From: Chitinophaga pollutisoli
Lineage (GTDB): Bacteria > Bacteroidota > Bacteroidia > Chitinophagales > Chitinophagaceae
Length of the DNA: 64,000 bases
NCBI RefSeq assembly: GCF_038396755.1
Contig: NZ_CP149822.1
Location: 5,982,001-6,046,000, forward strand
Direction of reading: 5' to 3'
A program made the position numbers and the translations under genes. The stretch's first letter is position 1. Each line of letters starts with the position of its first letter. This document shows positions 2,855-14,077 of this stretch, in pieces. Below the pieces are notes generated by a model that was given only the letters and a program-made list of their open reading frames with translations, searched no databases and was not told the DNA's origin.

Positions 2855-4583
2855 ATAGTTTGATGAGTTTGGTGAATAATGCGTTTGGGGAAGAGATGAC
2901 CTGGTAATGGTCGTGCCCGAACATCTGCGGCAGGTAATACCGCGCCGCCGCTTCGATGGCCAGCGCATAGGTTTGGATGTGCCGCTGCGACAATTCCCGC
3001 AGCGCCTGCCGCACATCGGCGATGCCGTAACGACCCTCATAACGGTCGAAGTCGTTGGGCTTGCCGTCGGATAGCAGGATGATCCATTTGTGGCGGCCTT
3101 CCCGCTGCTGCAACAAAGCCCCTGAATGCCGGAGCGCCGGGCCGATGCGGGTGTAGCCCTCCGGTTGCGGGGCGCCCACGGCATAGCGGGCGGTCCGCCA
3201 GTTGTCGTCAAAATCTTTCAGCGTTATATACGCCGTATAATTCCGCGTCTGGGAATAGAACCCGCAGATGGAAAAGTCGATGCCGGATTCGTGGAGGATC
3301 TCGCCGAAGAGGATGGCCGTTTGTTTGGAGATGTCGATCACCCGGTTGCCGGCGGCATAGCTGTCGCTGGACAGGCTGAGGTCGAGGAGCAGCAGGATGG
3401 ACAAATCCTTTTCCTTTTTGCGATCGGCCAGGTATACGCGTTCCGACGGGGTTTGTCCGGCGAGGAGATCGGCGAAGCGGTCGGTAACCCGGTCGGTATC
3501 GATTTCGTTGCCATGCAGCTGGAAGCGTTGGCGCGCCCATTGGTTGTTGATGCTGGCCAGGATGCGCCGCAGTTGTTCCAGCGCCATTCTGTGCGCAGCG
3601 ATGGTTTGTTCGCAGTAAGCCGCGTCGGTGAAAGGCTGGCGGATAGGGAATACTTTGCTGAATGCACGTTTGTAATTTTCCCTGAAGCAATCCCACTCGT
3701 CATACGACACAAACTTACCTTCGGTGGTGTTATCCTTGCTTTCGGCGGCGGTCGTGTTGCCGGTGTAACCCGTTTCGTACACGCTATGCACGGTATCATT
3801 GACGCGCACGGTGTATTTCATGTTCAGTTCGCGGAGGGCATCCTGGTGTTTTTCCAGTTCATCTTCCCCGTCGAAATCCCGCCAGGAGCCGCTGAATTCG
3901 TCGGCGGTATCTACCTTCTCGAAATTATGGGTGAGCACGTAATCTTCCTGCTGCCGGATGTCTACCGCGATGGTGATAATCTCTTCCACGGGCCGTGCCT
4001 GTACGATGGTTGGCTGTTCCGGCGCCGTAACCGCCGATCCCGCGGGAAAGGCGCTGAGCGCTTCCGGTTTGGCGGATTCCCGCACATCCGGCATCCACCG
4101 GCCGAAGAACCAGGCATCGTCGAAAGGTGCGTCTTGTTCTACGGGGATGCCGGCGCGCAACCGTTCGTATAAGCCGGGGCTTTCCGGGTAGGCTGCCTGC
4201 ATGGCGGCGAGCACTTCAGGCGCGGCGTTCGCAGCCCGGACAAGGGCTTCTTTATCCGTCAGGGAAACGGTGCTATAGCCGTTTAAGCCTAACTGTTGCT
4301 GTACGGAGAGGTAGAGCACGCGGAAGATGTAAAATGCGGCATTGAGGTCGCCGCTGGAGAATAAGCCGCATTTTTCGGGCAGGAAGAAGCTGTCCCCTTT
4401 GTAACCGCCTTCTTTCACAGCGGGGAAAATTTCTACCGGTCTGCCGGTGAGCGCCCTGGCCAGCAGGGTGAGCCGGGGCCGGAGGGGTTCCAGCGATACG
4501 GTGCGCGATACGTCTTCCGCCTGCGCTTTGCGCTGCCGGAAGTAGCGGACTACCCTGCCGAAGATGTATTCGTCGAGTGCCAT
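2829..4583 (-). CDS. norD: NorD-like nitric oxide reductase activation protein (VWA domain)
   Basis: 584 residues. The C-terminal 190 residues are a von Willebrand factor A domain. Its metal-binding MIDAS is visible: DLSLS near 401-405, a threonine in GYTRIGP near 478, and the aspartate of LLSDGKPND near 506. The N-terminal 380 residues are the poorly conserved NorD part, rich in charged segments. NorD works with the AAA ATPase NorQ to insert the non-heme iron (FeB) into NorB. Its gene sits directly after norQ, with 1 bp between them, as in other nor operons. The length is close to that of proteobacterial NorD (about 600-640). Confidence 0.88.
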   Translation of the reverse strand: MALDEYIFGRVVRYFRQRKAQAEDVSRTVSLEPLRPRLTLLARALTGRPVEIFPAVKEGGYKGDSFFLPEKCGLFSSGDLNAAFYIFRVLYLSVQQQLGLNGYSTVSLTDKEALVRAANAAPEVLAAMQAAYPESPGLYERLRAGIPVEQDAPFDDAWFFGRWMPDVRESAKPEALSAFPAGSAVTAPEQPTIVQARPVEEIITIAVDIRQQEDYVLTHNFEKVDTADEFSGSWRDFDGEDELEKHQDALRELNMKYTVRVNDTVHSVYETGYTGNTTAAESKDNTTEGKFVSYDEWDCFRENYKRAFSKVFPIRQPFTDAAYCEQTIAAHRMALEQLRRILASINNQWARQRFQLHGNEIDTDRVTDRFADLLAGQTPSERVYLADRKKEKDLSILLLLDLSLSSDSYAAGNRVIDISKQTAILFGEILHESGIDFSICGFYSQTRNYTAYITLKDFDDNWRTARYAVGAPQPEGYTRIGPALRHSGALLQQREGRHKWIILLSDGKPNDFDRYEGRYGIADVRQALRELSQRHIQTYALAIEAAARYYLPQMFGHDHYQVISSPNALFTKLIKLYERIRYSS

Positions 4584-5419: not shown

Positions 5420-6682
5420 TTATTTGTCGGTTGTTGCTTTTAAGGAGAAAAGCTTCGGGTTGACCTGCAACTCCAGGAAAAACCAGTTGTTGGAGTACCG
5501 GCTGCCACCTTTCAGCGCTTCCATGCTCCGGGTGGCCAGCATCTGCGAGTAGCCGCCGTTCAGCCAAACGAAATCCATCACCCGGTAACCGAATGTGCAG
5601 TCGATTTCGGTGCCGAGATAGTTGTCCAGCTTTTCTTCGTTGCGGTACAACCCCGCCGCCGTGGCGAAAAAATGCGGGGTGATGCGCGCCTTGAAGCGGG
5701 GCTTTTCATAAGCGAGATGGGCATATACGTCTGTCAGCCCCACGGAGTTGGCGTGGTTGCCGACGAAGAAGTAGTCCATAAACCCGTTGAATTTGTGGTT
5801 GGTGCCGAACCAGGGCGTGAAGCTTTTGAAGCCCGCGTCGGTATCGTTTCCTGCTTTCCCGGAAAGGAATTCCATCCCCGCGCCGGGAACCCAGCCGCTT
5901 TTCAGGCGGTAGCTGACGTTGCCGGCGGCGTTCCAGGCAAGGAGGTTTTTACCGTTCAGCGCACCGGTTTGCGCATACAGGGATACGTCGGTATTCCAGC
6001 CTTCTTGCGCGTAAGTGGCGCGGGTGCCGAGGGTCTGGTTCCAGGCGAGCTTTTCTTTTTGCGATACGAAGTAAGGCAATGCCTGGTTGAGGGCGAGCAG
6101 GCTGAAGCCGAATCGTTCGCCCTGCCGGTGGTACCATGCGAATTGCAGGTGTTTGTATTGCTGGGGCACGGTATAAGGCTCCCGTGCGTTGGATTCCCGC
6201 AAGGCGCTGATGGCCGCGCCGGCATGCAGTGCATGCGCTTTGGAAGGCGTGAATTTGAAAAGGAGCACGTCGTGGCTGCGGGCTTGCATTGTCCAATCCA
6301 CATTCCCGAGGATGCGGGCGTCGTCGTAATTCAATTCCTGCCGTCCGGCTTTGACGGACCAGTTGGGCGCGAACAGCAATTCCGCCCAGGCTTCATGCAT
6401 CTGGAAGTTCACATCCGTTCGCGCGGCGGTGGCCACGTCGCCCCAGGTGCGCACGTTTTGCGGGGCGATGCGGAGTTTCAGTTTGGGAGATGCATGATCG
6501 ATGATGATGCGGGTCCGCTGCGCCAGGAAGCTCCCGGGTTTCAGCGTGTCGTGGAACGGCGCGCCATACCCGTGGCGGTATTCGTAACGGAAGCGGAGGT
6601 CGGCGCCCACGTCGGTTTGTTGCGCGCGGGACGACAGGCCCGCCAGCAACAGGGCGCAGCATAGGATAGGTAGTTTATTCAT
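5420..6682 (-). CDS. Alginate-export-type outer membrane beta-barrel protein
   Basis: 420 residues with an N-terminal signal peptide (MNKLPILCCALLLAGLSSRAQ, cleavage after about 21). The mature part opens with VGADLRFRYEYRHGYG and continues with alternating strands such as TWGDVATAARTDVNF, WSVKAGRQELNYDDARILG and TMQARSHDVLLFKF, which match the alginate_exp porin family (16-18 stranded barrels). Many such Bacteroidota proteins have nothing to do with alginate. Within the nor/nir cluster it may admit nitrite or export another small solute, but that is inference. Its ATG overlaps the stop of the upstream sco gene by 8 bp, a sign of translational coupling. Confidence 0.75.
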   Translation of the reverse strand: MNKLPILCCALLLAGLSSRAQQTDVGADLRFRYEYRHGYGAPFHDTLKPGSFLAQRTRIIIDHASPKLKLRIAPQNVRTWGDVATAARTDVNFQMHEAWAELLFAPNWSVKAGRQELNYDDARILGNVDWTMQARSHDVLLFKFTPSKAHALHAGAAISALRESNAREPYTVPQQYKHLQFAWYHRQGERFGFSLLALNQALPYFVSQKEKLAWNQTLGTRATYAQEGWNTDVSLYAQTGALNGKNLLAWNAAGNVSYRLKSGWVPGAGMEFLSGKAGNDTDAGFKSFTPWFGTNHKFNGFMDYFFVGNHANSVGLTDVYAHLAYEKPRFKARITPHFFATAAGLYRNEEKLDNYLGTEIDCTFGYRVMDFVWLNGGYSQMLATRSMEALKGGSRYSNNWFFLELQVNPKLFSLKATTDK

Positions 6683-7253
6683 GTCCGGCGGTTTTGGCGA
6701 TGGCGGAAATGGTTGCTTTATTGTTCACGCCGAGGCCTTCCATCTGGTGGACGAGATCCCCGGCGGGATTGAAGACGCTGATAATATTGGAATGGCTGAA
6801 ATCCATCGGTGAGATCTCTTTGTATTTCACGGCCAGCACATTGGCGAACGCACGAACGGATTCGGTGTCCCCCTGCAGGAAGGTCCACTCCTCCCCGTCC
6901 ATTTCCTTGCCCACGGCGAAAGCTTTCAGGCGCTCCGGTGTATCATGCTCCGGGTCGATGCTTACGAGCACGTACTGCACTTTTCCGGCAAGCTGCGTGG
7001 GTACCTTCTGGCGGATGGCGAGCATATCGGCCACGAGGCGCGGGCAGGAGGCCTTGCAGGTGGTGTAGATCATGACCATCACGAGTGTTTTGCCTTGCAA
7101 GTCCTTGAGCCGGATGGTGTTGCCTTCTTCCGTTTTCCATTCCGAGGTAAGGTGGAATATCGATCCGCCGGAGTCCTGCGGCGCGGGGGATTCCCGCCGG
7201 GTGCAGGCGGAGAACATTGTAGCGAGGGCGAGGATGACGGGTATCATTTTCAT
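6675..7253 (-). CDS. SCO1/SenC-family copper chaperone lipoprotein
   Basis: 192 residues. The start at 7253 gives a lipoprotein signal (MKMIPVILALATMFSAC, lipobox FSAC); the open frame further upstream has no signal and was rejected. The copper-binding CxxxC is TTCKASCP (C66, C70), and the distal histidine is in DFSHSNII near 155. Sco proteins deliver copper or reduce cysteines in periplasmic Cu enzymes. Here the likely client is the copper nitrite reductase encoded three genes upstream, since no CuA oxidase is in the cluster. A 122-bp gap separates it from the cytochrome c gene before it, and 8 bp of overlap join it to the porin after it. Confidence 0.85.
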   Translation of the reverse strand: MKMIPVILALATMFSACTRRESPAPQDSGGSIFHLTSEWKTEEGNTIRLKDLQGKTLVMVMIYTTCKASCPRLVADMLAIRQKVPTQLAGKVQYVLVSIDPEHDTPERLKAFAVGKEMDGEEWTFLQGDTESVRAFANVLAVKYKEISPMDFSHSNIISVFNPAGDLVHQMEGLGVNNKATISAIAKTAGHE

Positions 7254-7375
7254 GATGTGCCTGTTAAGTGCAGCGGGCATCCGGAACGGGCCCCCCGTAG
7301 ATATCCGGAGCCGCTGCTTTGTTAGAACAATTGAGACTAAAACAAACAGTTGTTTCCATCCTGGATATGGATGCA
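7254..7375. other. Longest gap inside the denitrification gene run (122 bp)
   Basis: No gene is seen here. The stretch holds a perfect short palindrome, aaacagttgttt near 7345-7356, and a related half (aacaattg) about 18 bp before it. It could be a processing or promoter site that separates the nirK-side genes from sco onward. No AGGA-N8-TCCT operator was found in it, and no clear TAnnTTTG promoter on the minus strand. Confidence 0.35.
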
Positions 7376-7861
7376 TTATTTGGCGGCGTCTACCATCTCC
7401 GCTGTTACCTCCTGCGCCTTGTTGCCCCAGCTGTTGTAAACGTAGGTGAGCACGTCGGCCACTTCCTGGTGGCTGAGCGTTTGCGCGGGCATGGCGCTGT
7501 TGTAGGTGACGCCGTTGACGGTCACTTCACCGGTTTTGCCATGCAGCACGATTTGTATCGCGCGGTTTACGTCTTCGTTGAGGTAGTCGGACTTGGCCAG
7601 CGGCGGAAATGCGTTGGGTATGCCGGCGCCGTTTTCCTGGTGGCAAGCCTGGCAGGTTTTGGTATAGATGGCTTTGCCATTGGCGATCCTGGCTTCCACG
7701 GTTACTGGCGCAGCGGGGGCTGGCGCCGCTTCCGCGGAAGCGGGCATCGTGTCTCTTTGTGCGATGCCTGTCAGGTCGCCTTTATTTTCTTCCGGCTCAA
7801 CGCCGCCGCAGGATGCGAGGAATGCGCCCAGCGCGGCCATCAGCAAATATTTCTTTTTCAT
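7376..7861 (-). CDS. Class I c-type cytochrome, lipoprotein
   Basis: 161 residues with a lipoprotein signal (MKKKYLLMAALGAFLASC) and one heme site, CQACH, in a cytochrome c domain covering the last 95 residues. The axial methionine lies in the NSAMPAQ segment. A proline/alanine-rich linker separates the lipid anchor from the heme domain. The heme domain is about two thirds identical by eye to the C-terminal domain of NirK in this cluster, so the two arose by duplication. It is probably an outer- or inner-membrane tethered electron donor to NirK or NorC in the periplasm. It lies 6 bp downstream of the SUMF1-like gene. Confidence 0.88.
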   Translation of the reverse strand: MKKKYLLMAALGAFLASCGGVEPEENKGDLTGIAQRDTMPASAEAAPAPAAPVTVEARIANGKAIYTKTCQACHQENGAGIPNAFPPLAKSDYLNEDVNRAIQIVLHGKTGEVTVNGVTYNSAMPAQTLSHQEVADVLTYVYNSWGNKAQEVTAEMVDAAK

Positions 7862-7867
7862 CTTTTG

Positions 7868-8719
7868 TTATTTTTCTGGTTTGACGCACCGGAACCCCTG
7901 GTTCCGGATGCAGTAATTCGCTTTCAGGCTCCCCCTGAAAGCAAACCGCATAAACGCGGCGTAATTCATGAGATCGCCGGCGCCGATGCTGCCGCTTCCG
8001 CAGAACATATTGGCGTCGCTCGAAACATCCCTTCTCGATTCCCCCGAAACCATCACTTCATTAAAATCTTCCGTCCATTCCCACACCAGGCCATGCAGGT
8101 CATGCAGCCCCCAGTAGTTGGCGGTGTCCTGCATCACGGGGTTGCCGGCGGTATTCGGTTTTTCGTACCATCCGAGGATGTACTGGTTGTAAGTTGTTTT
8201 CTTTCGCGCGTCCGGCATGGTGGCATCCGCCATCGCCGCATACTCCCATTGGTCAACAGTGGGGAGTTGCTTGCCGGTAGCTTTGCAGTAGGCTTTCGCC
8301 GCGAACCACGAAACATTGGTCACCGCCGCATCCGGCAGCATGCCGGGCCCCAGTGTGGTATCGTTGGCCCACCCCGCGAGGTAATTCGCGTTGGCAAAGA
8401 TGGGCTTCACCACGGAGCGCCGCCATTGCGGGTTGCGCTGTACAAATGCCAGGTACTGGCGGTTGGTGACCGGGTGCATGTCCATTTGAAAATCTTTTAC
8501 GTTGACCGTTGTGTCTTTCCCGCCGTAAAACGGGGTGTATGTCCCTCCCTTCACTTCCATCATCACTACGTTATCATGCATCGGAATCATTAAAGGCTCC
8601 CCGCCGGCATCGCCGGCGACCGACCACACACTCGGAGCCGAATCCAGAACTGTCAGGTTATTACAGGATTCAGACATAATCACCAGCAGGCATGCGGCAG
8701 AGAGCCTTCTCAGATTCAT
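7868..8719 (-). CDS. Formylglycine-generating-enzyme-like (SUMF1/EgtB/PvdO fold) lipoprotein
   Basis: 283 residues with a lipoprotein-type leader ending IMSESC. FGE-fold signatures in order are DFQMDMHPVTNRQYLAFV, NVSWFAAKAYCKATGKQLP followed by DQWEYAAM, YWGLHDLHGLVWEWTEDF, and at the C-terminus FRGSLKANYCIRNQGFRC. True sulfatase activators have two redox cysteines in the last motif, separated by four residues. Here only the second is present, so classical formylglycine formation is doubtful. No sulfatase is nearby. Position between nirK and its paralogous cytochrome points to maturation or a structural role in nitrite reduction, but this is inference. Confidence 0.8.
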   Translation of the reverse strand: MNLRRLSAACLLVIMSESCNNLTVLDSAPSVWSVAGDAGGEPLMIPMHDNVVMMEVKGGTYTPFYGGKDTTVNVKDFQMDMHPVTNRQYLAFVQRNPQWRRSVVKPIFANANYLAGWANDTTLGPGMLPDAAVTNVSWFAAKAYCKATGKQLPTVDQWEYAAMADATMPDARKKTTYNQYILGWYEKPNTAGNPVMQDTANYWGLHDLHGLVWEWTEDFNEVMVSGESRRDVSSDANMFCGSGSIGAGDLMNYAAFMRFAFRGSLKANYCIRNQGFRCVKPEK

Positions 8720-8728
8720 AGGCTTAGG

Positions 8729-10177
8729 TTAATGCGTCCGTTTAGCGGCCACCATGGCCGGTTTAATTTCCTGTTGCTTGTTGCCCCAGCTGGCGTATAC
8801 ATACGTCAGCACGTTGGCGATCTCTTCGTCGGAGAGTACCTGCGCGGGCATCACGCCGTTGTATTTTTGTCCGTTCACCGTGATCTCGCCCTGCTTGCCG
8901 TGCAGCACCACGTCTATCGCCCTGCCGGCATCTGCGTTGAGATAGTCGGATTTAGCGAGCGGCGGAAAGGCGTTGGCGATACCGGCGCCATTGTCCTGGT
9001 GGCAGGCGAGGCAGGTTTTGGCGTAGACCGATTTGCCCAACGCGATGCGTTCTTCCATATTGGCGGCCTTCGGTGCAGGAGGCGCCGTGGCGCCGGGCAT
9101 CTTTTGAATCGTGCCGCCTTCGGGCTGGTAAATTCCTTCCGTTAGCTTGCCGGAATAAATTTGCTTGTTCTCGTCACCGGCTACCGTGAGCATACCCAGG
9201 GAGCCTTTATTGAAGGTGCGCGTCAGGGCGTGGTCAACGATCACGAACGTGCCGGGCACTTCCACCTTGAAGTCCACGATAGCCGCGCCGCCTGCGGGCA
9301 CCAGCGTGGTTTGTACGTTCTTGTTGATGAGGTCGCCGCCTTCCACATGCACGTTGTCGAAAATCTCACCGATCACGTGGAAAGAAGACACGAGGTTGGG
9401 ACCACCGTTGCCCACAAAGAGGCGCACGGTTTCACCGACGTTGGCCTTGATGGCATTGTCGCCCGTGAGGGAACCCACCTTGCCGTTGAACACCACGTAA
9501 TCCGGGTGCTCGTCTACCGCCTTCTGCATATCGAAAGGCTGCAGGCCGGGCTCGCCGTTCTTCCCTTTGGTGTAGAAATCGCCCTGCATAATGTAGTACT
9601 CCTTGTCCACCGGCGGCAGGCCGCCTTCCGGCTCCACCAGGATGAGGCCGTACATGCCGTTGGCGATGTGCATGGCCACGGGCGCGGTGGCGCAGTGGTA
9701 CACATACAGGCCGGGGTTGATCACCTTGAAAGAGAACACCACTTCGTGGCCCGGCGCCACGAAGGAGGAAGCGGCGCCGCCACCGGGACCGGTCACGGCA
9801 TGGAGGTCGATGTTGTGGGGCAGCTTGTTGTCGGGGTGGTTCTTGAGGTGGAATTCCACTTCGTCGCCCACCCGGGTGCGGATGAAGCTGCCGGGCACGG
9901 TGCCGTTGAAGGTCCAGAAGAGGTAGGTCACCCCGTCAGCCATCTCCCCTTCCTTCTCCACGATTTCCATGTTAACGATCAGTTTGGTGGCTTCGCGGTT
10001 GCCGACCGGCTTGGGTACCAGCGGCGGGGCCGTAAGTTCTGCGAGGCTTTCGCCGGATACTTTCATTTCAGCAGGCGGAGTGCCGGATTGCCTGCCGCCG
10101 GTCTGTTGTTTCGTCGTACAGTTGCTCAGGAGGCCGATACAGACCATTGCTCCCAGCAACAATTGATTCCTGTTCAT
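8729..10177 (-). CDS. nirK: Copper nitrite reductase (AniA-like) with fused C-terminal cytochrome c
   Basis: 482 residues that reduce nitrite to NO in the periplasm. A lipobox (LLSNC, C20) makes it a lipoprotein. Two cupredoxin domains follow. Ligands seen are the type-2/catalytic NIDLHAVTG (Asp and His), the type-1 site [18 protein letters not shown] (Cys, His, Met), and the last type-2 histidine in [17 protein letters not shown]. The YHC...[15 protein letters not shown] form is that of the class II AniA branch. After a proline/alanine linker, a class I cytochrome c domain starts at about 389 (CLACH), giving a built-in electron donor. It is followed 9 bp later by the FGE-like gene and preceded by norB with a 24-bp gap. 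Confidence 0.95.
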
Positions 10178-10201: not shown

Positions 10202-11551
10202 TCAGTTGAGGGCAGGGCGCGGGGCTTCCAGGGCTTCGGTGGTCGGGCGGCCGTACCGCACGAAGTCGAGGATGTAGAGGATGATGCCCGTGGCGAACAT
10301 CGATGCGCAAAGGATCAGCACCACGAAGTGCACTTTGATCTCGTTTTGCACGTCGCCGAAGTCCATGCCCATTTTCCGTTCGAGGTATACCTGCGCCACG
10401 CCGGCCACGCCGAAGGCGACCGTCATGCCCAGCATGCCGATATTGGAGAGCCAGAAAGCATAGGTGCCCCTGGTGGATTCGTAGAGTTTCCGGCCGGTGA
10501 GGTTGGGCATGGCGTAGCTGATGAAGGCGAGCACGATCATGGCGTAGGCGCCCCAGAAAGCGAGGTGGCCGTGCATGGCGGTTACCAGCGTGCCGTGTGT
10601 ATAAAGGTTCACCTGCGGCAGGGTGTGCGCGAAGCCCAGTACCCCCGCGCCCACGAAGGCCACGATGGCCGTGCCGATGGTCCAGCTGAGGGCGATTTTG
10701 TTGGGATGTTTCTTTTCGCCCTTGCGGTACATGGCGATGGCGAAGAGCACCATGCCGAGAAACGCCAGGGGCTCCAGGGCGGAGAAGATCCCGCCGATGA
10801 TGAGCCAGGTTTTGCCGGTGCCGATGAAGTAATAGTGGTGCCCCGTGCCGAGGATGCCCGAGATGAAGGTGAGCCCCACGATCACATACAGCCACTTTTC
10901 GATCACCTCGCGGTCGACCCCCGTCAGCTTGATGAGCAGGAAGGAAAGGATACCGCCGAGGATAAGCTCCCACACGCCTTCCACCCAGAGGTGCACCACC
11001 CACCAGCGGAAGAAGGAGTCGATGGTCTGGTTGTCGAACCAGATCATGCCGGGCAGGTACAGCAGTGCGGCGAAAACGAGGCCCATGGTAAGGACCAGCG
11101 AGGTGGTGGTACGTTTTTTACTTTTGAATAAGGTGGTGAGGATGAGGCCGAGGAAGAGGAGGACGTTGACGACCACCAGGTAATCGAGCGGCCGGGGGAT
11201 TTCCAGGAACTTGCGCCCTTCCCAGTAGTTGAAGTGATAACCCACGATGGCGGCAACGCCAACGAGGGCGAGGGAGATCAGCTGCACGTAGGCCCATTTC
11301 ACGCTCACCAGCTCTTCTTCCGCCTCTTCGGGGATGATGTAATATGCTGCGCCCATGAACCCGGTGAGGAGCCATACCACGAGTAGGTTGGTATGCACGG
11401 CGCGGGCGGTGTTGAAGGGGATGAAATCGTGGAGGACGTCGTGCCCGACCCTTGCGAATCCCATGATGAAGCCGTAAACGATCTGGAGCACCAGCAGCAG
11501 CATGGCCAGCGCGAAGAACCAGTAGGCGACCTGTTGACTTTTGTATTTCAT
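10202..11551 (-). CDS. norB: Cytochrome c-dependent nitric oxide reductase large subunit NorB
   Basis: 449 residues and 12 predicted membrane helices, the size of cNOR NorB and too short for the quinol-fused qNOR. Visible ligands are His53 (ARAVHTNLLVVW, heme), His187 (RWWVVHLWVEGVWE, FeB) with the essential glutamates on the same helix, His238-239 (GTGHHYYFIG, FeB), and His327/His329 (TAMHGHLAFWG, heme b and b3). It reduces two NO to N2O in the inner membrane with NorC, encoded 9 bp upstream. NorQ/NorD, encoded further downstream, would load its iron. Confidence 0.95.
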   Translation of the reverse strand: MKYKSQQVAYWFFALAMLLLVLQIVYGFIMGFARVGHDVLHDFIPFNTARAVHTNLLVVWLLTGFMGAAYYIIPEEAEEELVSVKWAYVQLISLALVGVAAIVGYHFNYWEGRKFLEIPRPLDYLVVVNVLLFLGLILTTLFKSKKRTTTSLVLTMGLVFAALLYLPGMIWFDNQTIDSFFRWWVVHLWVEGVWELILGGILSFLLIKLTGVDREVIEKWLYVIVGLTFISGILGTGHHYYFIGTGKTWLIIGGIFSALEPLAFLGMVLFAIAMYRKGEKKHPNKIALSWTIGTAIVAFVGAGVLGFAHTLPQVNLYTHGTLVTAMHGHLAFWGAYAMIVLAFISYAMPNLTGRKLYESTRGTYAFWLSNIGMLGMTVAFGVAGVAQVYLERKMGMDFGDVQNEIKVHFVVLILCASMFATGIILYILDFVRYGRPTTEALEAPRPALN

Positions 11552-11560
11552 TGGATATCG

Positions 11561-12001
11561 TTATTTCGTGTTGATGGATGTTTTGTATTTCGGTTTGGGC
11601 GGGAAGCCGTTGAGGTCCGTTTCGCCAACCCATTTGAGGAAGTCGGTGAGCTCCTTCACCTGCTGGTCGTTGAACCCGTAAGCCACCATCTTGCGGCCCC
11701 TGGGCTGCCAGGGCGTTTTGGAGGAAAGAACGGCTTTGATATAGGCTTCTCCCCTTCTTTCCACGACTTTGGTCAGTTCCGGCGCGTAATACCCGCCTTC
11801 ACCCATGATGGTATGGCAGCCCATGCAGTTATTGTTTTCCCAGAGTTGCTTGCCGGCGATCACCGAGGGCGTGATATTCTCTTCATGTGTTTTCTGCGGA
11901 ACCTCATTGCTGAGGGAGTGCCACGATAAGCCGATGAATATGACGAACGTAACGATCGTACCCCCGAGAAAAAATATCCGGGCGCTGCTTTTTGTGAGCA
12001 T
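11561..12001 (-). CDS. norC: Nitric oxide reductase small subunit NorC (membrane cytochrome c)
   Basis: 146 residues: one N-terminal membrane helix (about 9-27, IFFLGGTIVTFVIFIGLSW), then a periplasmic cytochrome c domain with heme site CMGCH at 59-63 and the axial methionine in RKMVAYGF near 105. NorC passes electrons to NorB. The start at 12001 gives the family N-terminus (MLTKSSARIFF). The reading frame extends 29 codons upstream, but without membrane-protein character. An AGGA-N8-TCCT inverted repeat lies about 143-158 bp upstream, so expression is probably controlled by the Rrf2-type regulator encoded just before it. Confidence 0.92.
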   Translation of the reverse strand: MLTKSSARIFFLGGTIVTFVIFIGLSWHSLSNEVPQKTHEENITPSVIAGKQLWENNNCMGCHTIMGEGGYYAPELTKVVERRGEAYIKAVLSSKTPWQPRGRKMVAYGFNDQQVKELTDFLKWVGETDLNGFPPKPKYKTSINTK

Positions 12002-12143: not shown

Positions 12144-12159
12144 AGGATTGATTTGTCCT
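12144..12159. promoter_or_regulatory. Candidate Rrf2/NsrR-type operator, site A (norC side)
   Basis: AGGA at 12144-12147, 8-bp spacer, TCCT at 12156-12159. Read on the minus strand it is AAAGGACAAATCAATCCT, sharing 15 of 18 positions with site B. It lies in the 175-bp gap between the regulator stop and norC. The agreement with sites B and C, including the flanking A/T bases, is seen directly. The regulator assignment is inferred from position. Confidence 0.7.
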
Positions 12160-12176
12160 TTATATAGCTATTAAAA

Positions 12177-12611
12177 TCAGTTTTTGAGTACCGACAATTT
12201 CTTTTCCACGTCGATGGTCAGGTTGTTGACCATGGATTCGTTGAGCATTTTGATGATGCCGGCTTTTATGTGTTTGTATTGATGGTGGACGGGACAGGGA
12301 TTTTTCTCGGAGCATTCCCTGAGGCCCAGCATGCAGTTTTCGGTGATGCCGTTGCCATCGATGGCGTTTACGATGGTGCAGAGGTTGAGGTGGCGGAGGG
12401 TTTGGGCTTCGATGAAGAAGCCGCCCTTCGCTCCTTTCATGGAGCTGATGAGCCCTTTCCTGGCGAGCTGCTGCAACACTTTGGCGGTGAATGCCACCGG
12501 CGATCCGATGGCTTCGGCGATATCGCGGACGTTGGACATCTGTCCTTCCTTCGAACGTTGCGCCAGGTAAACCGCCGCCTTGATTCCATATTCGCATGCC
12601 CGGGATAGCAT
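12177..12611 (-). CDS. Rrf2-family transcriptional regulator, NsrR-like (probable NO sensor)
   Basis: 144 residues. The winged helix-turn-helix at the N-terminus (MLSRACEYGIKAAVYLAQ, then GSPVAFTAKVLQQLARKGLI) is followed by the Rrf2 cluster-binding loop with Cys93, Cys100 and Cys106 (spacing C-x6-C-x5-C), the spacing class of NsrR and IscR iron-sulfur proteins. NsrR loses DNA binding when NO attacks its cluster, which would derepress norCB. It is encoded directly upstream of norC on the same strand. Its own promoter carries operator site B over the -33 element, which suggests autorepression. IscR-like or other Rrf2 roles cannot be excluded by sequence, but context favours NO control. Confidence 0.85.
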   Translation of the reverse strand: MLSRACEYGIKAAVYLAQRSKEGQMSNVRDIAEAIGSPVAFTAKVLQQLARKGLISSMKGAKGGFFIEAQTLRHLNLCTIVNAIDGNGITENCMLGLRECSEKNPCPVHHQYKHIKAGIIKMLNESMVNNLTIDVEKKLSVLKN

Positions 12612-12628
12612 CTTGCAGATTTATGACA

Positions 12629-12667
12629 CAAAGATAGGAATCGTATAATAAAGGACAAAAATATCCT
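12629..12667 (-). promoter_or_regulatory. Promoter of the Rrf2 gene with operator site B overlapping it
   Basis: On the minus strand the -33 element TTTG (12656-12659) is followed by exactly 19 bp and then TATCTTTG (12629-12636). This fits the Bacteroidota promoter TTTG-N19-TAnnTTTG. Operator site B (AGGA 12652-12655, TCCT 12664-12667, 8-bp spacer) covers the -33 element. The ATG of the regulator at 12611 is about 18 bp beyond the -7 box. A bound repressor here would block sigma factor access. Confidence 0.72.
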
Positions 12668-12678
12668 CAATTATCTTT

Positions 12679-12694
12679 TATGATTTTTGTCATA
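12679..12694. promoter_or_regulatory. Palindrome TATGA-N6-TCATA, candidate CRP/FNR-family site
   Basis: TATGATTTTTGTCATA is a perfect inverted repeat with 5-bp arms and a 6-bp spacer. It lies in the divergent region between the Rrf2 gene and the heme-copper-oxidase-like gene. The arm spacing is that of CRP/FNR-family sites, and FNR/DNR-type regulators commonly co-control nor genes. No such regulator gene is in the window, so the assignment is tentative. Confidence 0.45.
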
Positions 12695-12768
12695 CCGGAA
12701 GGAAGCCGCGGTTATTGTATGCTGACCGGTTGATGATACTTGTCAGAACGGGGTAATTCCCGTTTAAT

Positions 12769-12802
12769 AAAGGATAATTCAGTCCTTTTCGATGTATTTT
12801 TG
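12769..12802 (+). promoter_or_regulatory. Operator site C and -7 element of the divergent membrane-protein gene
   Basis: A perfect inverted repeat with 6-bp arms, AAAGGA (12769-12774) - 8 bp - TCCTTT (12783-12788), is followed by TATTTTTG (12795-12802), which fits the -7 consensus TAnnTTTG. The ATG of the gene is at 12824. This is the best-matching of the three operator copies, and it places the divergent gene in the same regulon as norC and the regulator. Confidence 0.7.
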
Positions 12803-12823: not shown

Positions 12824-14077
12824 ATGAATACTATAATAAGTGAAAAGCGGGTGGCGGCGTGGGTGCGCATTGGATTGGGGAATTTGTTGCTGGTGTCGTT
12901 ATGGGGATTGCTGATGCGTTACAAGATCGTTTTCTCCCTCCCTTTCTTCAACCAGAAATACCTGTTGCACGCGCATTCGCACTTCGCCTTCGGCGGCTGG
13001 GTGTCGCTCATGCTGATGGTGTTGATGCTCCGCGCGCTCCCTGCAGAAGTTCCTGCTTCGTACAGCCGTAAATTTCACCGGCTGCTGGTGGCCTGGCTGG
13101 TGAGCGCATATGGGATGCTGATCTCGTTTACGCTGCAGGGTTATGCTTTGTGGTCCATCACTTTCTCCACGGCTTCGGTGCTCCTTTCTTTCCTGTTCGC
13201 AGGGTTGTATTTCAACGCGCTGCGCAGCGTCCCCTCCTTCCCGGGAAGCCGCTGGTTCAAGGCCGCACTCATCTGGAATGTGATATCCACCGGGGGCACC
13301 TTTTCGCTGAGTTACCTCATGGCCACGCATACCGCCAACCAGGAAGCTTACCTCGGATCGATCTACTGGTACCTGCATTTCCAATATAACGGCTGGTTCT
13401 TCTTCGCCTGCATGGGCCTGCTCATCCATTACCTTCATGGGCGTGGCATCGTGCTGCCGGGTGAAAGCGGTATGTTTAAGTTGTTCGCGTACAGCTGCCT
13501 GCCCGCATACGGTTTATCCGTGCTGTGGCTCAACCTGCCCGTACCTGTCGCGCTGTTCATCGCGGCCACCGCAGTAGCGCAGGTGGTGGGGCTTGCTATC
13601 CTCCTGCGGGGGCTGTTCCTGGTCCGCCAAAGCATCGCAGCACAATTGTCCTGGCTCCCGGGCGCGTTGTTGCTCACGGCAGGACTGGCTTTCACCCTGA
13701 AAATCCTGTTACAGCTCGCCTCTGCCGATCCGGCGCTGAGTACGCTGGCTTTTGGTTCGCGGACGGTCGTTATCACTTACCTGCACCTGGTGTTGCTGGT
13801 GGGTGTGAGCTTGTTGCTGATAGGGCTTGTGGTGGCGGAGGGTATTTTGCCGGTGTATGGCGCCGCGCGGTTGGGTTTGCTGATGTTTTCCGCCGGCGTG
13901 GTGATGAACGAATTGTTGTTGGCGGTCCAGAGCGTGGGGGCGCTTTTCTATATTCCCATACCTGCTATTTTCGAATCCCTGCTGGCAGTTTCGGCGGTGA
14001 TGAGTGTGGGGTTGATCATGTTGAACGCGGGATGTGCGGGGCTCCGGAAGCGGGCAACCAGCCTGGTGATTGGTTGA
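12824..14077 (+). CDS. Heme-copper-oxidase subunit I-like / NnrS-like polytopic membrane protein
   Basis: 417 residues with about 12 predicted membrane helices. Helix 2 starts with HAHSHFAFGGW (His49, His51, His53), resembling the heme-ligating helix of subunit I and NorB (HTNLLVVW), and later helices carry YLHFQYNGWFFF and YLHLVLLVG. The pattern is that of a heme-copper oxidase-like or NnrS-like protein, but the paired CuB/FeB histidines of a real oxidase are not seen, so it is probably not a catalytic oxidase. The longer frame from 12740 would place operator site C inside the gene; ATG 12824 gives a natural start. It is divergent from the regulator and carries the same operator, so it is probably induced by NO. 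The function is not established. Confidence 0.65.
   Translation: MNTIISEKRVAAWVRIGLGNLLLVSLWGLLMRYKIVFSLPFFNQKYLLHAHSHFAFGGWVSLMLMVLMLRALPAEVPASYSRKFHRLLVAWLVSAYGMLISFTLQGYALWSITFSTASVLLSFLFAGLYFNALRSVPSFPGSRWFKAALIWNVISTGGTFSLSYLMATHTANQEAYLGSIYWYLHFQYNGWFFFACMGLLIHYLHGRGIVLPGESGMFKLFAYSCLPAYGLSVLWLNLPVPVALFIAATAVAQVVGLAILLRGLFLVRQSIAAQLSWLPGALLLTAGLAFTLKILLQLASADPALSTLAFGSRTVVITYLHLVLLVGVSLLLIGLVVAEGILPVYGAARLGLLMFSAGVVMNELLLAVQSVGALFYIPIPAIFESLLAVSAVMSVGLIMLNAGCAGLRKRATSLVIG

Follow-up and report, generated by a model that had tools for sequence, protein, structure and literature searches.

A palindrome as probable operator of an Rrf2-type regulator beside nitric oxide and denitrification genes in Chitinophaga pollutisoli and its relatives: a probable NsrR-like repressor

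Introduction

In a 64,000-nucleotide stretch of the Chitinophaga pollutisoli genome (NCBI RefSeq assembly GCF_038396755.1, contig NZ_CP149822.1, positions 5,982,001 to 6,046,000 of the forward strand; hereafter the window), a gene for an Rrf2-family regulator, rrf2, is flanked by inverted repeats and lies next to norC, norB and nirK. This raises the question of which protein reads the repeats, which genes they control and in response to which signal. A sequence-only reading had proposed that three copies, before norC, rrf2 and a divergently transcribed membrane-protein gene, define a small nitric oxide (NO) response regulon, perhaps with a Bacteroidota-specific version of the site bound by NsrR, the NO-sensing repressor of the same family. 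The consensus given for NsrR in proteobacteria, Bacillus and Streptomyces is gATGyAT-N5-ATrCATc (PMC1274295, in the portion available). For Bacteroidota, we found no description of the present operator, or of an operator or regulon for the NO response, in the full-text literature searched, most subscription journals lying outside its scope; the available part of the RegPrecise 3.0 account names Bacteroidaceae as the collection for this phylum. From comparison of sequences we consider it probable that the adjacent Rrf2 protein uses the repeats as its operators and is an autoregulating iron-sulphur (Fe-S) repressor of NO-handling and denitrification genes, akin to NsrR yet separate from it.

Results

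The inverted repeats are part of a longer palindrome

All three repeats lie where the sequence-only reading placed them, and each matches AGGA-N8-TCCT exactly. Operator 1 (12144..12159) closely follows the stop codon of rrf2 and precedes norC by about 150 bp, operator 2 (12652..12667) lies 5' of rrf2, and operator 3 (12771..12786) 5' of the divergent membrane-protein gene. The window contains five copies of this pattern (at 3394, 6877, 12144, 12652 and 12771) against a mean of 0.55 in shuffled sequence, where the largest count was 3 and none of 100 shuffles reached 5, bearing out the claim that three copies within 650 bp are far above chance. The longer consensus of the same reading is not rare on its own: with up to three mismatches it gave 9 matches in the window where 3.84 are expected, a number that was attained in 5 of 100 shuffles. 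Within the 6.08 Mb genome, AAAGGAYAANNNNNTCCT has four exact matches, three of them at this locus, and its reversed-pattern control two. The repeats are thus real, whereas their extent had to be corrected, since the full palindrome spans about 24 bp, has a consensus of about AATWMGGAYAAAWTTTRTCCKWATT and comprises a core, GGAY-N6-RTCC, and a looser outer arm. Scored with the weight matrix described below, operators 1 and 2 reach 19.4 and 22.7 and operator 3 is the lowest at 13.2. Comparison with a close relative (L008) and with Chitinophaga pinensis (L009) reveals that the operator arms are conserved while the spacers drift; operator 1 has a counterpart box and operator 2 is kept in both genomes, and operator 3 is present in L008 and absent from C. 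pinensis.

FNR, CRP and published NsrR boxes were considered as explanations of the repeats and none is above chance in the window, the NsrR consensus giving five matches with up to three mismatches against 7.22 expected. The conserved box therefore differs from the known NsrR site, as had been supposed. Patterns allowing one mismatch were too noisy to delimit a regulon genome-wide (48 sites per strand, compared with 35 when the pattern was reversed; 15/16 against 7/15), and genome-wide calls were restricted to sites with high matrix scores. L136 and L138 gave borderline scores of 11.0 and 10.4, the gene after the former being NosD-like by eye only.

The palindrome accompanies rrf2 in relatives

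Scanning one genome per species identified 313 places encoding an Rrf2 relative, and the analysis was carried out on the best 80 of them. A symmetric weight matrix, seeded with exact matches near rrf2 and then iterated, located 143 sites no more than 300 bp from rrf2 in 74 of these 80 loci, compared with a mean of 0.1 and a maximum of 1 in shuffled flanks (20 rounds). Sites occur upstream of rrf2 in 71 loci and downstream of it in 61; 58 loci have both kinds and 6 have neither. Three of the six matrix-negative loci (L023, L024 and L029) carry a variant box, TAGTGGAY/RTCCACTA, near rrf2, so that a box stands beside the gene in 77 of the 80 relatives, in support of its role as operator of the adjacent Rrf2-type regulator. 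The upstream site is typically about 60 bp before the rrf2 start codon and the downstream site directly follows the stop codon, and the box accompanies rrf2 through differing gene neighbourhoods. With regard to the suggested restriction to Bacteroidota, the operator recurs in many members of the phylum, but one locus (L030) is recorded as Ignavibacteria and the pair is therefore not strictly limited to it. Since the matrix was trained on rrf2 loci, tests outside those loci carry more weight.

NO-handling and denitrification genes lie behind the operator

The gene next to rrf2 was counted in 75 of the 80 loci and most often belongs to the Ric cluster (45 loci), whose function is the repair of NO damage. 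Others encode NorB-like proteins (5), truncated globins (4) and PAS/DUF1858 proteins (3); norC, nirK, YtkA-like, ccoN-like and hemerythrin genes and one unnamed cluster occur twice each, and six singletons include flavohaemoglobin, anaerobic ribonucleotide reductase and NadA. A Ric cluster is present somewhere in 61 of the 80 loci, and a member of it scores over the TIGR03652 cut-off and matches solved YtfE/ScdA. In the three Dysgonomonadaceae loci with the variant box, the first gene downstream of rrf2 codes for a PAS_10/DUF1858 protein.

At a higher threshold, the matrix gave 145 matches across the full 1.19 Mb of loci, 124 near rrf2 and 21 elsewhere, while Markov controls of resampled loci gave 0, 2 and 0. 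Of the 21 matches away from rrf2, 10 precede nirK, 7 a cytochrome c gene and 4 other genes; in L026, L040, L041 and L071, the four loci in which genes of a nosZ cluster were seen, these genes lie downstream of that cytochrome c gene in the same orientation. A gene-blind search of 296 genomes of the class for exact AWWWMGGAYAWWWWTRTCCKWWWT returned 17 sites in 16 genomes, which include that of the window and may overlap with the 80 loci, whereas the reversed control returned one site in one genome. Twelve of the 16 loci contain rrf2 and/or ric, and 13 do so when the second locus of the window's own genome is counted; in L198 the site precedes a methyltransferase gene with ric next. Of the three remaining sites, two are close to genes for a thioredoxin-domain protein and an alginate-export porin, respectively, and one is inside a 771-residue frame. 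Taken together, these gene associations (Ric, NorB-like, norC, nirK, globins and nos-cluster genes) support the proposed NO and denitrification regulon.

Operator position relative to candidate promoters

The -33 promoter element reads TTTG or TTG. In Flavobacterium psychrophilum, the sigma-A box TAnnTTTG is reported at -12 to -5 (PMC9723704, in the part available). In 65 of 70 rrf2 promoters a TAnnTTTG box follows the centre of the operator on its 3' side at a distance of 10-40 nt, the spacing being 22-26 nt in 59, and the operator at rrf2 would therefore cover the -33 region. By contrast, none of 60 downstream sites has such a box at 10-40 nt. These sites are instead preceded by an A-tract at -27 (52 of 60) and TTT at -21 (42 of 60), and the right arm of the operator, at +2, reads TATCC in 35 and TGTCC in 13 in place of the -7 box. 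At the gene after rrf2 the operator thus appears to cover the -7 region, and both placements would fit repression through blocking of the polymerase.

In the window, the candidate boxes were read from the sequence. Operator 2 overlaps the -33 region of the predicted rrf2 promoter, with a candidate -7 box, TATCTTTG, at 12629..12636 on the minus strand, about 24 nt 3' of the operator centre, a spacing alike in most relatives. Operator 3 has a candidate -7 box, TATTTTTG, at 12795..12802 on the plus strand, about 17 nt 3' of its centre, and operator 1 has none.

The regulator resembles NsrR and IscR and is distinct from both

The rrf2 gene (12177..12611, minus strand) encodes a 144-residue protein that belongs to the Rrf2 superfamily, scoring 74.2 bits against a cut-off of 30 for PF02082 and 84.5 against 73.3 for TIGR00738. 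Its cysteines are arranged as Cys93-X6-Cys100-X5-Cys106-X2-His109, and these four residues, together with Cys6 and Glu7, are invariant in all 81 aligned proteins. The three cysteines of the motif and an acidic residue, Glu7, correspond to the cluster residues of NsrR, Glu7 aligning with Asp8 of E. coli NsrR; Asp8 is described as a cluster ligand in Streptomyces NsrR (PMC9338935, available in part). The protein is therefore likely to be a cluster-bearing sensor. It shares with NsrR the family, the candidate cluster cysteines and the predicted control of NO-detoxification and denitrification genes (PMC1274295), the exceptions here being nrdD and ccoN-like genes. It differs from NsrR in its operator, a GGAY-N6-RTCC palindrome, and from the E. 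coli protein in sequence (about 28% identity over 64 residues) and cysteine spacing (X4/X5 in E. coli, X6/X5 here). IscR, the regulator of Fe-S status, is likewise an Rrf2 protein whose Cys-Cys-Cys-His arrangement aligns, His109 matching a histidine of E. coli IscR, but its spacing is X5/X5 and the neighbours here are, as far as annotated, NO and respiration genes. Both NCBI equivalog models fell below their cut-offs, NsrR with 36.2 bits against 182 (a narrow model that only 1 of 14 control genomes passes) and IscR with 49.1 against 207.55. Since neither cut-off was reached and no paper with this operator was found in the literature searched, we refer to the protein as an NsrR-like Rrf2 repressor. 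Rrf2 genes beside clade II nos clusters have been noted on metagenome scaffolds, several from Flavobacteriales; the accessible text of that study reports the same association and describes no operator, target set or mechanism (PMC6264515).

Operator variants accompany recognition-helix variants

We compared 108 proteins, 90 of which have a core no more than 150 bp upstream and 85 a readable symmetric core. The 10 boxes in which GGA is flanked by an outer T on both sides, found in Flavobacterium, Dysgonomonadaceae and one Chitinophagaceae genome, all belong to proteins with Ser43 in the recognition helix; of two half-T boxes, one is paired with Ser43 (L031) and the other is not (L016). A set of Chitinophagaceae Rrf2 proteins with Ile, Val or Leu at position 42 and a SPEHFIAK-like recognition helix (L090-L116), here termed class B, has AA-type boxes (TAAAAGAY...RTCTTTTA-like) in all 11 readable cases; 12 of 23 Ile/Val/Leu42 proteins lack a readable core, and boxes of the AA type also accompany 12 Thr42 proteins. 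Independent co-evolution of operator and helix was considered and set aside, as a tree built without the recognition-helix columns needs only one box change, and two for Ser43, and offers no statistical proof. When columns were ranked by mutual information with the G/A position, those outside the helix stood equally high, and the 16 columns listed do not include position 42. The match between helix and box supports, without proving, that Rrf2 reads the box.

A second rrf2 locus in the same genome

The C. pollutisoli genome encodes a second Rrf2 protein, 38% identical and without Cys6 (L146, 16227-16679), beside a cluster with ric, a cytochrome c gene, nosZ, nosL and nosD. The NosZ encoded there is of the Sec type and scores over the TIGR04246 cut-off. 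A site scoring 18.1 precedes ric, with a weaker one (10.4) beside it, and the strongest operator of the genome (24.3) precedes a gene of the 6-pyruvoyl-tetrahydropterin synthase family directly 5' of the second rrf2. This gene (PF01242; L146, 16708-17130, minus strand) lies between that operator and the second rrf2, with which it apparently shares one operon. The second Rrf2 probably reads the same operator, and the regulon is accordingly larger than the three sites of the window first suggested. The 3.4-kb locus of a third Rrf2 contains no site above 9.

Other features of the window

Operators 1 and 2 flank rrf2, and norC, norB, nirK and accessory genes then follow on its strand. norC (11561..12001, minus strand; PF00034) encodes the cytochrome c subunit of NO reductase, its name resting on context and homologues, and precedes norB (10202..11551, minus strand; PF00115), which encodes an NO reductase of the haem-copper subunit I fold family and is named from context. 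nirK (8729..10177, minus strand; TIGR02376 over cut-off) is fused to a cytochrome c domain (PF00034). The remaining same-strand genes (5420..8719, minus strand; identified by Pfam) encode an FGE-sulfatase-domain protein, which we take to be NirV, a cytochrome c, an SCO1-family protein and an alginate-export porin, and gene order suggests that they are co-transcribed with the preceding genes. The divergent membrane protein (12824..14077, plus strand) matched no Pfam family; its structure model (mean predicted local distance difference test score, pLDDT, 92.2) has a haem-copper-oxidase subunit I fold that matches CcoN and NorB. A CRP/FNR-like palindrome, TATGATTTTTGTCATA, at 12679-12694 is largely kept in L008 and L009 and lies about 62 bp before the predicted rrf2 transcription start, a classic activator distance; as a pattern it is not enriched within the window. 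A 35-codon open reading frame between operator 1 and norC was discarded, as the stretch is kept in L008 and not in C. pinensis.

Discussion

On the reading that we favour, a cluster-loaded Rrf2 dimer would sit on the palindrome, covering the -33 region at rrf2 and the -7 region at the gene that follows. NO released by NirK during nitrite reduction would damage the Fe-S cluster, whereupon the damaged protein would leave the DNA and the nor, nirK, ric and nos genes would be switched on. Given the genes behind the sites, NO is the likeliest signal.

Several observations weigh against this reading. The weight matrix was trained on the same loci in which it was counted, three of these loci (L026, L036 and L037) have no box at the threshold used, and the joint variation of helix and box comes to about a single event. 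nrdD, which encodes anaerobic ribonucleotide reductase and is not plainly an NO gene, follows rrf2 in L043, L184 and L186. Of 23 class-B rrf2 genes, 18 precede a gene for a ccoN-like oxidase and five precede ric, with or without a globin gene; this oxidase has a long N-terminal part ahead of its ccoN-like domain and matches the ccoN model below cut-off. Finally, recurrence of the motif in relatives holds for rrf2 and much less for norC: among 394 genomes of the family, 14 have NorC at the threshold used, and in only 2 of these, the genome of the window being one, does the box stand directly before norC. Longer stretches were examined for ten of the 14 (L173-L182). In L173-L176 norC lies in a gene run headed by a class-B rrf2, and only L174 has a (variant) box by the class-A matrix; no rrf2 is reached within the L177 stretch; in L178-L180 we saw no rrf2 and no convincing box (L178 has one match of 10.6); and in L181 and L182 variant boxes occur close to ric and to hemerythrin and membrane-protein genes. 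Among the targets of the operator, norC is a minor one.

The same regulator and operator could instead answer to oxygen or to general Fe-S or redox status, in the manner of IscR, with the NO genes forming part of an anaerobic-respiration regulon. The oxidase genes behind class-B rrf2, the three loci with nrdD and the cysteines and histidine shared with E. coli IscR all speak for such a signal, which is possible above all for class B. Class-A proteins, including the one described here, have Ric as their most frequent neighbour, and nor, nirK, globin and flavohaemoglobin genes recur; we consider this alternative rather unlikely.

It is far less probable that another factor, for example a CRP/FNR protein, reads the palindrome and that rrf2 is just one of its targets, or, least probable of all, that the repeats arose by chance or are terminator-like without a regulatory role. 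The binder cannot be identified from sequence alone, and a CRP-like palindrome does lie in the same intergenic region, but the box is unlike the FNR and CRP patterns, both at chance level in the window, and it tracks rrf2 across different neighbourhoods and, albeit in about one event, the recognition-helix variants of its product. Likewise operator 1, directly after the rrf2 stop codon, occupies a possible place for a terminator, whereas the enrichment in the window, the recurrence in relatives, the fixed distance to the promoter box and the gene-blind scan all argue for a regulatory site.

The NsrR-like repressor of NO-handling genes thus remains our preferred interpretation. With less assurance, we lean towards a broader proposal, namely that Bacteroidota may have their own class of Rrf2 NO repressors apart from NsrR, in which residues 42 and 43 would read the bases flanking GAY...RTC (giving GGAY, TGGAY and AAGAY), the operator would take two positions (-33 at the regulator, -7 at its targets) and the core regulon would comprise ric, nor, nirK, nos and a degenerate haem-copper membrane protein. 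Our confidence in both interpretations is reduced by the neighbours of class-B rrf2 and by the narrowness of the NsrR model.

In the metagenomes of one study, Bacteroidota rank with the principal carriers of clade II nosZ, which encodes the enzyme that consumes nitrous oxide (PMC6264515, in the part accessible). A defined operator would allow NO-responsive genes to be predicted in these bacteria and would provide a short DNA probe for a binding test, and it would add a further pairing of Rrf2 protein and operator that could help to explain how members of the family recognise DNA.
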